Virus record (IMG/VR): IMGVR_UViG_3300028025_005339
Span: 1-25,944 of that record
Strand: one strand, 5' to 3'
DNA length: 25,944 nucleotides
Source of the DNA: a virus
Position numbers and translations under genes: made by a program. Below are positions 2,481-11,922 of this stretch, piece by piece (the first letter of the stretch is position 1; the number at the start of each line of letters is the position of its first letter). The notes under the pieces were generated by a model. That model made no database searches and was not told the origin of the DNA. It was given only the letters and a program-made list of their open reading frames with translations.

Positions 2481-3023
2481 TTGAAAAAATTGAGTTTATT
2501 TTTGGCCACTTTGGTCGTGAGTGCTTCAGCAATGGCAGGTGGTTATGCATCATTGGAATATTCCGATGAAAGCAATCGTTCAACAGGTGCAGAGAATATC
2601 AAACAAGGTTTAGTTATTGGTAACAAAGTTGACAGTGTTGACTATAGTATCAAAATGGAAAATAGCCAAACTGAAATTGGTAGTGGATCAATCACTCAAG
2701 CACTTGAAGTTCGTGCAAGAAAAAGCCTTGGTGCATTGTATGTTGGTGCTCGTTTAGGTGAGAGAATCACAAGTTCAACACACTTCAGTTACTACGCACT
2801 TGATTCTGGTGTTAAGTTCCCATTGTTTGCAGGATTGACTGGTGATGTTGGTGCTCGTTACCACAATGCGTTTGAATCTGGTAAATTGTATGAAACAACC
2901 CGTGGCCACGTTGCAGTAGGTTATGCACTTACTAAACAGGATGCAGTTGCAGTTCGTTGGAGCCGCTCATGGGGTGATGAAGAAAAAGACGCAGTACGTT
3001 TACAGTACACACGTAGCTTCTAA
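2481..3023 (+). CDS. Secreted outer-membrane beta-barrel protein
   Basis: The gene uses a TTG start at 2481, placed by a strong Shine-Dalgarno (AGGAG at 2470-2474, 6 nt spacing); no other start gives a signal peptide. The 180-aa product opens with a classic Sec signal, MKKLSLFLATLVVSASAMA, with probable cleavage after residue 19. The rest alternates polar and hydrophobic residues in short strands broken by Gly/Asp/Asn turns, as in small 8-stranded OMPs. It ends YTRSF with a C-terminal Phe and aromatic residue spacing that matches the BAM-recognised beta-signal. An OmpA/opacity-like small barrel is the best general description. In a phage, such a protein could alter the cell surface, for example to block superinfection, or change permeability; neither role is shown. 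The host is therefore a diderm bacterium. Confidence 0.8.
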   Translation: MKKLSLFLATLVVSASAMAGGYASLEYSDESNRSTGAENIKQGLVIGNKVDSVDYSIKMENSQTEIGSGSITQALEVRARKSLGALYVGARLGERITSSTHFSYYALDSGVKFPLFAGLTGDVGARYHNAFESGKLYETTRGHVAVGYALTKQDAVAVRWSRSWGDEEKDAVRLQYTRSF

Positions 3024-3038
3024 TTTGAGGGAAAATAT

Positions 3039-3476
3039 ATGAGTGAGAAAATTAAAGGTACACGTACCGAAGAAAACTTGAAAGCAGCTTTCTCAGGTGA
3101 ATCACAAGCCAACCGCAGATACTTGTATTTTGCAAACATGGCAGACGTAGCAGGAGACAATGATATTGCTGCTCTGTTCCGTAGTACAGCAGAAGGTGAA
3201 ACTGGACACGCACATGGTCACATGGAATATTTGATTGAAGGCGGTGCAGGTGATCCAGGTACAGGCATGAGTGCTAAAACTACTACAGAAGCTTTGGAAT
3301 CAGCGATTCACGGTGAAACACATGAATACACTGACATGTATCCGGGTATGGCAAAAACTGCCCGTGATGAAGGCTTTGAAGAAGTAGCAGATTGGTTTGA
3401 AACATTAGCAAAAGCTGAACGTAGTCATGCTAATCGTTTTACTAAAGCTTTGGCTGCACACAAAGAAGCACAGTAA
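3039..3476 (+). CDS. Short rubrerythrin (ferritin-like di-iron protein)
   Basis: The 145-aa product is a complete rubrerythrin four-helix domain. Ligands are visible in order: E21 ([11 protein letters not shown]), E54 and H57 (EGETGH), E93 and E96 (HGETHEY), E127 and H130 (AERSH). All di-iron ligands of classical rubrerythrin are present. The C-terminal rubredoxin FeS4 domain is absent, so this is the short sulerythrin/erythrin form. Rubrerythrins reduce hydrogen peroxide in the cytoplasm; without rubredoxin the electron donor must be another protein. A Shine-Dalgarno GAGGG lies 10-14 nt before the ATG. It follows the outer-membrane protein by 15 nt. An imperfect copy of the end of that gene reappears right after the rubrerythrin stop, suggesting that the rubrerythrin was inserted there. 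Confidence 0.92.
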
Positions 3477-3598: not shown

Positions 3599-4138
3599 AT
3601 GTTAAATGAATATTTAATATATTGGATTCATAATGATTCGGAAACTGACATAAAAACACAAGGTTATGTCGGTATAACTAAAAATCTAAAAAGAAGAATA
3701 AGAGAACATTTACCTAAAATAAATTTTTTAGAAGGTAGAACAGTAGATATTTTTTTATACGGAGAAAAAGAATATTGTAAAGAAATTGAATATCAGTTAA
3801 GACCAAAAAAACATATTGGACTTAATATTGCAGCTGGAGGTGGGATTCCACCAGATGTGACAGGTATAAAAAGAAGTGATAAGACAAAACTTCTAATGTC
3901 TCAAAACAATGTTGGTATGAAAGGTAAAAAACATACCGATGAGACAAAAAGAAAAATGTCAGAAACACGAAAAGGTTTTGGTAAACCTCACACAGAGGAA
4001 ACCAAAAAGAAACTTTCAGAAATCGCAAGAAAAAGAAAGTTCAATCCCATGACAGGCAGAAAACACACAGAAGATGCCAAGTCAAAAATTTCCGAAGCTG
4101 CATTACGCAGACGGAAAAATACACAGACACAGGAGTAA
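3599..4138 (+). CDS. GIY-YIG homing endonuclease with NUMOD3 repeats
   Basis: This 179-aa protein has an N-terminal GIY-YIG nuclease module: YWI at 8-10 and YVG at 23-25 replace the two name motifs, followed by an Arg cluster (R32/R33), a candidate catalytic Glu (E62 or E64) and N76. Residues 88-172 hold four NUMOD3 DNA-binding repeats of the form G-x-x-H-T-x-E-T-K-x-K-x-S-E, the arrangement found in free-standing T4 Seg-type endonucleases. Such enzymes cut phage DNA lacking the gene, so that the gene is copied in during repair. Lysine and AAA/ATA codons are more frequent than in neighbours, consistent with mobile origin. A strong AGGAG (3588-3592) lies 6 nt before the ATG. It does not interrupt a recognisable gene. 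Confidence 0.88.
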   Translation: MLNEYLIYWIHNDSETDIKTQGYVGITKNLKRRIREHLPKINFLEGRTVDIFLYGEKEYCKEIEYQLRPKKHIGLNIAAGGGIPPDVTGIKRSDKTKLLMSQNNVGMKGKKHTDETKRKMSETRKGFGKPHTEETKKKLSEIARKRKFNPMTGRKHTEDAKSKISEAALRRRKNTQTQE

Positions 4139-7314: not shown

Positions 7315-8685
7315 TTAAACTAATCTCAATGAATTGTATATCATTCGTTGGAATGTTTCTTCTTTGTTTCTCACTAAAGGCACTGGTACCTTTTGGCCTG
7401 TTGCTGATTTTTGGTTAACAACATTTGTTTTATCCTGTGTAGCCTGATTTTTCTCTGCCGATGTTGGTGTAGACAAATTCAGACTTACATTTTCTTGTAT
7501 TGCATTGTTAACAGAAGAAGATTTTGGTGGTTCTACAACAACAGGAGGTGAAGTAAAACGAGGCACATAGTTTTTCATACCTTCTTCAGTTGATGATGAG
7601 GTAGATGTTGTTCCAGGAGTAGATTCATTTACCAATGTTGCTGTTTCACCAGTATCAAGTCCCTTTACAACTTCTGCACTTCCTTTCACATCATTCGGAG
7701 CAGATTTTGCATTTCTTTCTTTAGCAGCTTGTATAACATCATCTGCAAGTTTATCAACTTCTTCTTTTGCTTTTATTTGATCCTCTGGTGGTAAACTGAA
7801 AAGTGTTTCAGCAGGATAAGCTTGTTCTAACAATAACTTAGATACTTCCTTTTTATCACCACGTTCAGCGGCTTTTTCTATTTGTTTATCTTGTAAATAT
7901 TTTGCAGCGGCCGCTACTGCTACACTTCCAGCAATTACTGTACCACCGGCTGCAACACCAGGAGCCATCAAAGTACCGACAGCCCATCTACCAGCACTTA
8001 ATAATCCCTTAACTAAAGGAACACCAACTTTTTTAGCAATTTCGACAATAGAAGTTTTTAATAAACCAATAATGTCAGCTAAACCTTTTAATTTGTCAAA
8101 AATATCTCTGATAAAATTCATTATTCCATCTAAGAAACCGCCGCCTTGTTTTTCTTTTGTTGCGGTTTCTCCATCAAAACCAATATTAGCCAATGCTTTC
8201 AGTAAATCTCTGTGGCGTTTTTCATCATCCAGTTTTACACTTTCTCTAAGGTTATTTTCCTTTTCTCTCAGTATCATATCCTTCTCGTGACTTTTCTGTA
8301 AGAAAGTAAGAATCTGATTCAGTACGACTTTCATTCCGCTGGTATCTTCACCTTCACCACGACCTGGTATTCCTGTGATTTTTTTTCTTCTTTCACCAAT
8401 TGGACTTGCTCTACCAGTAAAATACTCAACATCTTTTCTGGAACGACCAAATAATTTACCATATAAAGCAGGACCCAATCGTGAACCAAATGTTAAGAAT
8501 TTAACAATATTAAGTGGATCGAACTTCTCTTTGATGCCTTTAATTCTGGCCTGTGTTCTTAAGCCAACAGCACCTCCAATCGCACCACCAAGGCCTTTGC
8601 CACGAATAAGTTCATCAGCAATTAAGTCCTTAATAGAACGATTTCTAATTTGTCTGGCTTGTTGATAGTTTAGTTGATTGTCCAT
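7315..8685 (-). CDS. Large tail/virion structural protein with hydrophobic core segment (456 aa)
   Basis: The N-terminal third carries a segment, FDPLNIVKFLTFGSRLGPAL (55-74) and LFGRSRKDVEYFTG (78-91), that I associate with virion structural proteins of T4-like marine phages. Residues 128-165 are a charged coiled-coil-like helix. Residues 183-264 are strongly hydrophobic, with a membrane-like Ala/Gly/Val stretch at 238-262. The last 120 residues are Ser/Thr/Pro-rich and probably disordered. Hydrophobic patches within a long helical protein recall tape-measure proteins, which enter the host membrane during DNA injection. It is the last gene of the minus-strand island, 10 nt after the GH19-containing gene, with AAAGGT before its ATG. 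An exact T4 counterpart (gp29 or another) cannot be named from sequence alone. Confidence 0.75.
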   Translation of the reverse strand: MDNQLNYQQARQIRNRSIKDLIADELIRGKGLGGAIGGAVGLRTQARIKGIKEKFDPLNIVKFLTFGSRLGPALYGKLFGRSRKDVEYFTGRASPIGERRKKITGIPGRGEGEDTSGMKVVLNQILTFLQKSHEKDMILREKENNLRESVKLDDEKRHRDLLKALANIGFDGETATKEKQGGGFLDGIMNFIRDIFDKLKGLADIIGLLKTSIVEIAKKVGVPLVKGLLSAGRWAVGTLMAPGVAAGGTVIAGSVAVAAAAKYLQDKQIEKAAERGDKKEVSKLLLEQAYPAETLFSLPPEDQIKAKEEVDKLADDVIQAAKERNAKSAPNDVKGSAEVVKGLDTGETATLVNESTPGTTSTSSSTEEGMKNYVPRFTSPPVVVEPPKSSSVNNAIQENVSLNLSTPTSAEKNQATQDKTNVVNQKSATGQKVPVPLVRNKEETFQRMIYNSLRLV

Positions 8686-8695
8686 TTAATTACCT

Positions 8696-10456
8696 TTAAT
8701 TAAAAAGTTTTCTGAAGAATCCAGGTGTATCATCTTCAGTCTCGGTATTTTTTACAGGTGAATTATTTTGTTGATTTATAACTGTTGTATTCGTGCCGTT
8801 AGGAGAATTTTTATTTTTGTCATTTAACTGTTTTTTACCATCTTGGTTTTGCACAGATTCTTTATTTAATTGGTCGCCTGTATTATTCGAACTCATCTCA
8901 GCAGTAAGAGCTTTAGCTATTTTTGCTCGGTGTGCTGATTCCATTTCACCCGATTTTAATTGTTTATCTTGAAAACCTACAGCTTTATTGACCTTATTGA
9001 TATTTTCTAAATCATTAAGGTTTTTGATTCTATCTTTTTTGTACACTAAGAAAAACCAAGGAACGGATTTAGCCGCAATCAATGGGTTGTTTAATAAATC
9101 TGGATTTGAAACCAAATCTTCTTTTATATAATCACCTAAAGATTTGTATGCATCTTTTCCGGTAATTTGAATAAATCCTCTGCCTCTATACTTAAACCCA
9201 TCACCTTCGGCTGTGTTTCCCATTCGGCTACCATAAACAGAATTACCAATTTTTTCTGGATTTTTTTGTATATCTAAGGCAGTTTGATTTGGTAAATATC
9301 TTTTACTTTTTTCATCTTTTATTAATTTTCCACTAGCATCTTTGTTAGCAAATCGGTTGGGCCAAGTATTGGCTAAACCATCTGCGGAATAATTTAGATT
9401 TTCACTTTGTGGAATGAATTTAGATTCAGCTTCAACTTGAGCCAAAATATTTGCTTGAGCTGTTGTGGATACAATTCCTGCAGCTGTTAATGCTGCAATA
9501 ACTGCTATTTTTCCAGCAGGTGCGCCAATTGGAACTTTTGGAATAGCACTTGGACCGGGTTTTGGTTCAGCACTTGGTTTACTTGGTTGAGGTTTGTTTT
9601 GTTCCGCAGTTCTTTTTGCTTCTTCTGCTGCTTTCTTTGCGGCTGCTTCTTTTTCAGCTTTTATTTTTTCTGCTGTTTTTTTAGCTTCCTCATCTTTTAA
9701 TCTTTTGGCCGTGGATTTAGATTCTTCGTCTACTTTCTTTTTAGCGACTCTGGCTTCTTCAGCAGCTTTCTTTTGAGCAGCTGTGGCTTCTTCATCTACT
9801 TTCTTTTTAGCAGATGTGGCTTCTTCATCTGCTTTCTTTTTATTGGATCTAGCTTCTTCAGCAGCTTTCTTTTCGGCAGATTTGGTTGGCTGTGATGGTG
9901 GCTTAGTTTCTGTTTTCGGTGCCTGAGCAGGAGGTTGAGTAGGGCCTTTAGGTGGTGCTGGTGGCTGAGCAGTACCACCTCTACGTCCTTTAGGTGTACC
10001 TCTAGGTGCTCTAGGTGGTGATGGTGTTGTCGGTGGCGCTGGTGGTTGAGCACCACCTTTTGGTTCTTTGGGAACAGTATCTTCTTTTGCTTTGCGTTTT
10101 CTTGGTGTAACTGGTTTTTTCTTTCTTCTGCCAGTTAAAGCCTTGATGATTTCTTTGTTTCTTATGTCTTTTTTTAGTTCTTCAGATTCTAAAGTACTTT
10201 GTGCCAGTTCATGGTTGAGTCTTTTGTCCTCTTCCATAATCTTCATCATCTTGTAGATTTCACCTAAGACTTTGGCTGGTGGCATATTGTTTTTGTCAAC
10301 CAACTCAGAAGATGAATCACTATTCAGTAAACCACCAGTTTTGTAATTTAGATTCCATTTGGCAAACTTCTTTGCACCACCGAGCAACGACTTGCCAATA
10401 CCACCTAAGGACATTTTACTGACTGAATTTTTAGTTTTGTCTGATGGTTGTGCCAT
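8696..10456 (-). CDS. Tape-measure-like tail protein with GH19 muralytic domain (586 aa)
   Basis: The layout is: an N-terminal Gly/Lys segment and helix (1-105); a Pro/Lys-rich linker (110-195); a TolA-like Ala/Glu/Lys repeat coiled coil (196-288) built from KKAAEEA-type units; a second Pro-rich linker; a hydrophobic stretch (314-332); and a GH19 chitinase/lysozyme-like domain (about 325-520). The GH19 signature includes ILAQVEAESKF (E342/E344 as candidate catalytic acid), YSADGLANTWPNRF, and RGRGFIQITG (424-433). GH19 domains in phages cleave peptidoglycan glycan strands. The total length is close to T4 tape-measure gp29 (590 aa). The gene starts 1 nt after the -1 frame that extends gp26, the place where tape-measure genes sit in many tailed phages. 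A muralytic tail protein would assist cell-wall penetration. Tape-measure identity is inferred from position. Confidence 0.8.
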   Translation of the reverse strand: MAQPSDKTKNSVSKMSLGGIGKSLLGGAKKFAKWNLNYKTGGLLNSDSSSELVDKNNMPPAKVLGEIYKMMKIMEEDKRLNHELAQSTLESEELKKDIRNKEIIKALTGRRKKKPVTPRKRKAKEDTVPKEPKGGAQPPAPPTTPSPPRAPRGTPKGRRGGTAQPPAPPKGPTQPPAQAPKTETKPPSQPTKSAEKKAAEEARSNKKKADEEATSAKKKVDEEATAAQKKAAEEARVAKKKVDEESKSTAKRLKDEEAKKTAEKIKAEKEAAAKKAAEEAKRTAEQNKPQPSKPSAEPKPGPSAIPKVPIGAPAGKIAVIAALTAAGIVSTTAQANILAQVEAESKFIPQSENLNYSADGLANTWPNRFANKDASGKLIKDEKSKRYLPNQTALDIQKNPEKIGNSVYGSRMGNTAEGDGFKYRGRGFIQITGKDAYKSLGDYIKEDLVSNPDLLNNPLIAAKSVPWFFLVYKKDRIKNLNDLENINKVNKAVGFQDKQLKSGEMESAHRAKIAKALTAEMSSNNTGDQLNKESVQNQDGKKQLNDKNKNSPNGTNTTVINQQNNSPVKNTETEDDTPGFFRKLFN

Positions 10457-10457
10457 T

Positions 10458-10646
10458 TTATTTTCTTAGTTTTTCTTTTATCTTCTGGTTCTCTTCCTCA
10501 ATATATTGGACTAACATTGCAATGTATATGTCCCTTTCCCATGGCATCATGTTGTCTAATTCTGTCAGACTATACTTATGGTGCTGCATCAAAGAGAAAT
10601 TTGTCCTATAATGATTTCTCAGGTTATCATGGCGAAAGGTTATACG
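10458..10646 (-). CDS. -1 frame extension of gp26 (predicted frameshift product; also a 43-aa ORF from ATG 10589)
   Basis: After the slippery heptamer the -1 frame stays open for 62 codons to TAA at 10458-10460, past the gp26 stop at 10640-10642. The predicted protein includes NHYRTNFSLMQHHKYSLTEL and then DNMMPWERDIYIAMLVQYIE, and ends in a charged helix. The 20 codons before the only usable ATG (10589) already read like protein, and that ATG has no well-placed Shine-Dalgarno (AGGA is 14 nt away). Expression as a gp26 fusion of about 302 residues is therefore more likely than independent initiation. The MPWERD helix resembles the T-domain of tail-assembly chaperone fusions. The stop lies 1 nt before the start of the tape-measure-like gene. 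Confidence 0.7.
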   Translation of the reverse strand, partial: RITFRHDNLRNHYRTNFSLMQHHKYSLTELDNMMPWERDIYIAMLVQYIEEENQKIKEKLRK

Positions 10647-11365
10647 AAAAAACTTTCTAGGCCTTCCACATCAATCACATGATGAAAACCACACTTGCCA
10701 CAAGTCATTTCAAGTTTTTCTTTCATCTTTGGTAGATTGTTGAAGAATTTCTCAATCTTTTCAAATTGTACTTGATTCAAGTTTTCAACAAACTCAATCA
10801 TTTCTTCAATTGGTGTTTCTTTACCATAATAGAATTGCTCACCATCGTAGATGTATTCAATACTACGAGCCAACATATTAAAAGTAAGTTCTGTTTCATC
10901 TTCAATATCAGCAGAATCTTTAACAATGCCAAACACTGGATACTTCATTCTAATAGAAAGTTTATCATTCAATTCGATATCTGGAGAAATAGTTTCATCT
11001 ATCTGTACCTTGATATCCAACAGATTGATATTGTGTTCCATTGTATTGCCACACTCTTTATCATCAACCTGATTATTACAACGATATTTTGATTCAATTA
11101 CTTCACCTACAGATTTTGCTCTGAGGTTGATAAAGTAGAACTCAACGTCAATAATTGGCAAGTTATCAATATCAACATTTTCAGTCAAGGTACAATTATG
11201 TAAAATATCATAGATGGCACTATGTACAGAATCAGAATCACTGTTCTCCATGGCCATCAATAAGTTTCTTTGTTCTTTAACTAGAAACGGACGATATTTA
11301 AGTTTTTTCTTTGAAACTGGTAATTCAATTTCATATGTTGGCACATCAATTTTTGGTAAAGCCAT
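10640..11365 (-). CDS. 26: Baseplate hub/tail-assembly protein, T4 gp26-like
   Basis: The 241-aa product starts MALPKIDVPTYEIELP and continues KKLKYRPFLVKEQRNLLMAME, the hallmark N-terminus of the T4_baseplate (gp26/gp51) family. T4 gp26 is 208 aa. Four cysteines form a likely zinc ribbon: C96, C105, C222 and C225 (TCGKCGF). In T4, gp26 is needed for baseplate hub assembly. The codons before the stop are AGT TTT TTC GTA TAA, placing a T TTT TTC heptamer in frame, and the -1 frame continues for 62 codons. That makes this gene look like the shorter partner of a tail-assembly chaperone pair. A good TAAGGAG precedes the ATG. The next gene downstream is the tape-measure-like protein. Confidence 0.88.
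   Translation of the reverse strand: MALPKIDVPTYEIELPVSKKKLKYRPFLVKEQRNLLMAMENSDSDSVHSAIYDILHNCTLTENVDIDNLPIIDVEFYFINLRAKSVGEVIESKYRCNNQVDDKECGNTMEHNINLLDIKVQIDETISPDIELNDKLSIRMKYPVFGIVKDSADIEDETELTFNMLARSIEYIYDGEQFYYGKETPIEEMIEFVENLNQVQFEKIEKFFNNLPKMKEKLEMTCGKCGFHHVIDVEGLESFFV
10646..10652 (-). promoter_or_regulatory. -1 ribosomal frameshift slippery heptamer T TTT TTC
   Basis: On the minus strand the heptamer T TTT TTC fits X XXY YYZ in the gp26 reading phase, so tRNA-Phe can re-pair on TTT TTT after slipping. A Shine-Dalgarno-like GGAAGG lies 9 nt upstream, a spacing known to stimulate -1 frameshifting in E. coli dnaX. Phage P2 E/E' uses the related T TTT TTG. No strong downstream hairpin was seen, only a weak ATGAT/ATCAT stem. 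Confidence 0.7.
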
Positions 11366-11385: not shown

Positions 11386-11922
11386 TCAAAATATAAAAGA
11401 TTGGTTTTGTTCCCATCTAGTATATGCAAATGTAACTACCAATTTATGGTAGCCGTCAGAACTCCAATCCAAGTCCATTTGATTCACGGACATTGGAAAT
11501 GCATTAATAACCCGCACAGAATAAGATAATTTATTTGATACATCATATTGATTAATTATCATATCACAACAATAATCGGATTTATAAGCAACATTGTTTG
11601 TCTGTGATGGATTGATGAGTTCAAGCCACGAATCAAATATCTCTTTCTGTGACATATCATCATCAACGATGAACGTCAGGTCCAAATCGGTATATGTGGT
11701 TATGTTTACAAACTTTTCAATTGGACCATATGTTTTCTGTTCAACTGTATCAAATGTTCTACCTGGAAGTTGTGCAGCTTCACAACGCAAAGACAGATTT
11801 CTATTGTATAGAAGCATCAACGGAAATCCAGCAGGTGGTAAAATGATAACATCAAACCTATTGTTTCTTGCAATATCTTTAGTAAAGCTTGATATAAAAT
11901 TACGTAAACTTGTTGCCGCCAT
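11386..11922 (-). CDS. Tail-tube-fold protein (gp19/gp54-like)
   Basis: The 178-aa protein has the sequence style of T4 tail-tube subunits. It opens with RNNRFDVIILPPAGF (19-33), then the strand LSLRCEAAQLPGRTF and the YGPIEKFVNITTYTDLDLTF segment (65-84) that pairs strands around the tube. The C-terminus, DGYHKLVVTFAYTRWE, is the last strand of the gp19 fold. T4 gp19 is 163 aa. The gene is not next to a tail-sheath gene here but among hub and head-completion genes, so it may be a tube initiator (gp54 role) or a second tube paralogue rather than the main tube protein. Its ATG follows the upstream stop directly, with AAGGAA as the ribosome-binding site. Confidence 0.72.
   Translation of the reverse strand: MAATSLRNFISSFTKDIARNNRFDVIILPPAGFPLMLLYNRNLSLRCEAAQLPGRTFDTVEQKTYGPIEKFVNITTYTDLDLTFIVDDDMSQKEIFDSWLELINPSQTNNVAYKSDYCCDMIINQYDVSNKLSYSVRVINAFPMSVNQMDLDWSSDGYHKLVVTFAYTRWEQNQSFIF

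Follow-up and report, generated by a model that had tools for sequence, protein, structure and literature searches.

The gp26 locus and its −1 reading frame

The window considered here, by which we mean the whole stretch of DNA analyzed (IMG/VR record IMGVR_UViG_3300028025_005339; 25,944 bases), is a fragment of an uncultured virus that carries T4-type head, tail, and baseplate genes, among them a gp26 gene whose 3′ end holds a putative −1 frameshift site. The gp26 coding sequence lies on the minus strand, as do all features of this locus, at positions 10640 to 11365. Its 241-residue product, the predicted short form of a tail assembly chaperone (TAC-N), matched PF12322 (T4_baseplate; E value, 5.9e-59) and PHROG 150 (E = 1.9e-64) in profile searches. 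The gene ends GAA AGT TTT TTC GTA TAA, with the zero-frame stop at 10640 to 10642. The heptamer T TTT TTC at 10646 to 10652, in the X XXY YYZ phase, is the sole classic slippery heptamer in phase within gp26, and GGAAGG, a Shine-Dalgarno-like candidate stimulator, lies 9 nucleotides (nt) 5′ of it (10662 to 10667). From a first codon, CGT, at 10646, the −1 frame runs through 62 sense codons before a TAA at 10458 to 10460, leaving a gap of 1 nt to the ATG of the next gene at 10456. A preliminary description of this DNA had given the heptamer, the GGAAGG spacing, the 62 codons, and the 1-nt gap, and all of its coordinates and counts proved exact when we reread the sequence and its open reading frames (ORFs).

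On base composition alone, 62 open codons would arise by chance with a probability of ~0.006; we regard the comparative data as the stronger evidence for the −1 frame. The extension (10458 to 10646) encodes the C-terminal gp51 domain (TAC-C): a 44-residue ORF inside the −1 frame, taken by itself, matched PHROG 634 (“baseplate hub assembly catalyst,” gp51) with an E value of 1.5e-19. We then joined gp26 and the extension in silico into the predicted 302-residue frameshift product, gp26-gp51 (TAC-NC; 10458 to 11365). The fusion matched PHROG 150 over residues 1 to 285 with an E value of 3e-76, and its residues 196 to 300 matched PHROG 634 with an E value of 9.3e-31. The fusion thus outscored the separate pieces for both families, implying that the family profiles themselves span the junction.

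An AlphaFold2 model of the window gp26 had a mean predicted local distance difference test score (pLDDT) of 85.5. With residues 1 to 95 of the model, the top VIA-align matches were 3fgx (Z = 7.9), YqbN (3klu; Z = 7.3; root mean square deviation [rmsd], 3.8 over 86 aligned residues), which we take to be a chaperone homologue, and the HK97 tail assembly chaperone gp13 (2ob9; Z = 7.2; rmsd, 3.6 over 84 aligned residues), after which scores fell to 4.4 in the fourth row and 2.8 in the fifth. Foldseek alone returned no match to the model at an E value of ≤0.001, with the HK97 chaperone ranked 5 to 6, and the gp26 sequence profile had no match among solved structures at E values up to 1.

Conservation and stimulatory elements at the slip site

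Loci were gathered from viral contigs through relatives of two proteins, the window gp26 and S-PM2 gp26 (80 for each); with annotated phages added, 176 loci were scored. TTTTTTC was found in the same phase in 168 of them, from P-SSM2 and S-PM2 through Vibrio, Aeromonas, and Stenotrophomonas phages, and the −1 frame was open for at least 25 codons in every one of these 168; complete extensions were 58 to 68 codons long, counting the two shared F codons. The heptamer is constant across two clades with gp26 proteins that are ~40% identical. We examined codon use after thinning to <90% nt identity, which left 36 representatives from the window clade and 41 from the cyanophage side. At the slip site, the FF pair was encoded by TTT TTC in 77 of 77, with no synonymous change at all, whereas every other conserved F column in gp26 varied synonymously, and FF pairs elsewhere in gp26 were mainly TTC TTT (24 of 39 and 20 of 42 in the two sets). 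The representatives are related to one another, and for that reason we claim no formal probability for the codon evidence.

Selection on the −1 frame was assessed from the ratio of nonsynonymous to synonymous change (pN/pS) in the −1 stretch between the slip and the first Met that is shared. The ratio was 0.118 in the window clade (codons 3 to 21 from the slip) and 0.396 in the cyanophages, versus 1.0 to 1.4 for the same bases read in other frames. Judged by these values, the −1 stretch ahead of any shared start codon is under strong purifying selection in the window clade, where the −1 frame has no start codon common to all members before its codon 20. Loci of this clade have a −1-frame stop 16 to 43 nt upstream of the gp26 stop, and an overlapping gene from upstream therefore cannot explain why TTT TTC is kept. 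The preliminary description had looked to related phages for a conserved heptamer and a −1 frame evolving at a low ratio, and both were found; its proposal that a −1 frameshift joins gp26 to the extension is borne out by the invariant heptamer, the selected −1 frame, and the profile matches of the fusion.

Departures from the heptamer were few. Rhizobium phage AF3 has T TTT TTG, and phiN3 and Melnitz have T TTT TTT; both variants retain tRNA re-pairing. Melnitz is in agreement with the slip site, as are S-B68, KVP40, and Syn30, which have T TTT TTC. The gp26 frame of one locus, L053, is broken, apparently through an error of assembly. In five Ackermannviridae-type or Vibrio phages (L090, L092, L094, L095, and L097), ATT TTC or CTT TTC stands in place of the full heptamer, and a gp51-like −1 frame is retained directly after gp26. 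A gp51 extension is also present, unannotated, in the −1 frame of Aeh1 (L091, after 3205), Aeromonas phage G2 (L087, after 3193), and Syn30 (L183, after 1507).

Upstream of the slip, predicted pairing with the anti-Shine-Dalgarno sequence showed a sharp minimum at 7 to 9 nt in each clade, averaging −6.3 kcal/mol in one and −6.6 kcal/mol in the other; the value for the window is −5.5 kcal/mol. In the cyanophages (L001, L002, and L098 to L174), a hairpin is predicted to start ~5 to 9 nt 3′ of the heptamer; calculated over 45 nt at a time, it had a mean z of −3.26, with 83% below −2, and the signal was sharply local, falling to near zero farther off. The stem differs between subgroups, and covariation is thin, with one pair changed on both sides in one subgroup and no covarying pairs in a second, in which the stem hardly varies. 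Support for the hairpin therefore comes from the local energy peak and not from covariation. In P-SSM2-type cyanophages, the hairpin includes the annotated gp51 ATG. No such hairpin is present in the window clade. A weak hairpin 27 nt downstream of the slip in the window clade (mean z, −1.17) was set aside as too distant for a usual stimulator.

It is conceivable, although we would put it at slightly below an even chance, that a single T TTT TTC cassette is combined with different cis-acting stimulators in different lineages: the Shine-Dalgarno-like element alone in the window clade, and that element together with an immediate hairpin in the cyanophages, the hairpin covering the annotated gp51 start in some subgroups. 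The Ackermannviridae-type phages would retain the −1 relation although they have just NTT TTC. If this is true, the family would offer, through such lineage-specific stimulators, a natural series in which to follow how frameshift rate is tuned.

The slip site and its phase, the open and selected −1 frame, the homology to gp51, and the conserved Shine-Dalgarno-like element are all established from the sequence. We infer from them the slipping itself, its rate, and the chaperone role, as follows. Gene 26 would encode the short chaperone TAC-N, and ribosomes would slip back by one base at T TTT TTC near its end, such that a minority pass the TAA and translate 62 further codons to yield the 302-residue long form, TAC-NC. 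The extra domain of TAC-NC would be the “gp51” of other genomes' annotations, and, like G and GT of lambda, the two forms would help to assemble the tape measure with the tail tube or hub. We are highly confident that the −1 programmed frameshift is genuine and strongly conserved; in this uncultured lineage of T4-like phages, its product is most likely the long form of a tail assembly chaperone.

Alternative explanations and neighboring genes

The likeliest alternative, which we nevertheless consider very improbable, is that gp51 is a separate small gene with a start of its own, reached by re-initiation or through its own Shine-Dalgarno sequence. Translation would then begin at ATG 10589 or TTG 10592 in the window and at an ATG right after the gp26 stop in the cyanophages. 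Of the 41 cyanophage representatives, 20 have such an ATG as the fifth −1 codon, and many records, including those of P-SSM2, S-PM2, and KVP40, have gp51 annotated as a separate coding sequence. In P-SSM2-type phages, however, the annotated ATG is the one covered by the post-slip hairpin. The peptide RITFRHDNLRNHYKTNFSL, conserved in the window clade, lies ahead of any start shared there and is under purifying selection, and ATG 10589 is preceded by conserved coding sequence but not by a good Shine-Dalgarno sequence. A separate gene would also leave the invariant TTT TTC unexplained.

It is less probable still that the frame is changed by RNA polymerase slipping on the T run (transcript editing) and not by the ribosome. 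The site is indeed a run of six T, but the run is held at six T followed by C and is not lengthened, the heptamer variants retain codon re-pairing, and the Shine-Dalgarno-like element and the cyanophage hairpin lie at distances typical of ribosomal frameshifting. Although frame breaks can be errors, as the broken frame of L053 illustrates, we hold that an assembly error or a decayed fusion gene is already refuted by the comparative data, the identical break, identical codon, and intact −1 frame being present in 168 loci and in complete genomes such as those of S-PM2, P-SSM2, KVP40, and Aeh1.

Some observations weigh against a programmed frameshift producing a long chaperone. We found no direct detection of the frameshift fusion product in the papers that we read. 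RNAalifold revealed no conserved structure immediately 3′ of the slip in the window clade, and the folding-energy scan gave a mean z of +0.49 at slip+12, which means that stimulation there would have to rest on the Shine-Dalgarno-like element, and the strength of pairing predicted for the window's own element is only moderate. In about half of the cyanophage representatives, an ATG closely follows the gp26 stop, so that gp51 could be initiated independently in those phages. Finally, the structural Z scores of 7 to 8 for the gp26 model (all <8) are under the level that would exclude a merely common arrangement.

The gp26 gene directly follows a gene for a tail-tube-like protein of 178 residues (11386 to 11922; PHROG 45 tail tube, E = 8.5e-39; Pfam Phage_TTP_2, E = 1.9e-6). 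The gene on the other side (8696 to 10456) encodes 586 residues with a GH19 lysozyme-like domain (PF00182, E = 2.7e-7; PHROG 181, E = 5.5e-37) and is a tape-measure candidate by position only. It is followed by a gene for 456 residues (7315 to 8685), a second putative candidate in view of the downstream ORFs of relatives. An ORF matching the 586-residue protein adjoins the extension in most window-clade loci; this first downstream ORF is 431 to 709 residues long among relatives, and its GH19 part was not found in many of them. In most relatives, the 456-residue protein matched the second ORF downstream, and in some it also matched the first, which suggests that the 586- and 456-residue ORFs may share a module. 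Profile searches with these two proteins gave no match to a tape-measure family, and BLAST comparison of the proteins encoded downstream in the window with T4 gp29 and further putative tape measures detected no similarity. The next-door 586-residue gene, called tape-measure-like in the preliminary description, stays no more than a candidate, given its GH19 domain, the range of lengths among relatives, and the 456-like ORF found in that place in part of the clade.

Other features of the window lie on the plus strand. A permuted two-piece transfer-messenger RNA (tmRNA) at 2005 to 2498 matched Rfam RF04321 with 126 bits and beta_tmRNA (RF01850) with 97 bits, and ARAGORN gave its tag as VKTKTNVNANDSSYEYALAA; judging by the best match within the clan, the host may be a betaproteobacterium. 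Aquatic phages such as Melnitz are known to carry tmRNAs in two pieces (PMC9004378). The 180-residue protein encoded at 2481 to 3023 has a signal-peptide-like start and reads like an outer-membrane beta-barrel, and a Pfam search with it gave no match. A rubrerythrin gene at 3039 to 3476 (PF02915, E = 1.1e-26) is a possible oxidative-stress auxiliary gene, and the product of 3599 to 4138 matched a homing endonuclease family (PHROG 314, E = 2.6e-12) and is GIY-YIG-like by eye.

Relation to known tail assembly chaperones

T4 gp51 (249 residues) matched PHROG 150 over positions 13 to 280 of 282 and also matched PHROG 634, whereas T4 gp26 matched PHROG 150 over 14 to 235 only. Because T4 gp51 matches the fusion and T4 gp26 only the short form, T4 and 44RR carry both forms as separate genes. 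T4 gp26 thus corresponds to the short form and gp51 to the long form, like the predicted pair of the window, but in T4 and 44RR these are two divergently oriented genes, for which no frameshift is needed, whereas the window has one gene with a −1 extension. Within the 25.9-kb fragment record, there was a single gp26 match and no second full-length gp26-like gene (gp51, about 250 residues). That gp26 is the short chaperone and the 302-residue fusion the long one, as the preliminary description had proposed, is supported by the matches to PHROG 150 and PHROG 634 and by this comparison with T4 gp26 and gp51.

Vladimirov, Gautam, and Davidson in 2022 identified the tail assembly chaperones of T4-like phages and reportedly found frameshifting to be conserved in several T4-like groups, with T4 itself using genes 26 and 51. 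Of two papers that cite them, the PRFect paper (PMC10885494) cites this work (Virology 566:9–15) for T4-like phages with separate short and long chaperone genes, and the Adele paper (PMC12846349) credits it with poly-T −1 frameshift signals in the “TAC-N genes of T4-like phages.” The signal in the window would be of the same kind, here in an uncultured virus fragment. The authors of the preliminary description were not aware of a frameshift having been described for T4-type gp26; according to these two papers, an earlier report exists, so that the core proposal is correct but had been anticipated.

The frameshift would correct many annotations. Sullivan et al. (2010; PMC3037559) described cyanophage gp51 as “truncated,” at ~20% of the usual length, and as “missing” in Aeh1, and gave no frameshift explanation. 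The short cyanophage gp51 most plausibly represents the C-terminal domain of the frameshift product, which would account for both the “truncated” cyanophage gp51 and the “missing” gp51 of Aeh1. The T4 gp26/gp51 pair would thereby be linked to the general tail assembly chaperone system, a principle already published.

Phages P2 and 186, with their E and E+E′ products, have the slip site T TTT TTG in place of T TTT TTC, and we liken them to the window by the frameshift arrangement. In lambda, short G and long GT chaperones are made from one gene, between the tube and tape genes, by a −1 slip at G GGA AAG; the heptamer of the window is different, and the likeness here is only at the fold level, to the HK97 chaperone. 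The order of tube-like gene, gp26, gp51 extension, and long ORF, seen in most of the non-T4 relatives that we looked at, fits the pattern of lambda and P2. The analogy that had been drawn to lambda G/GT and P2 E/E′ holds up.
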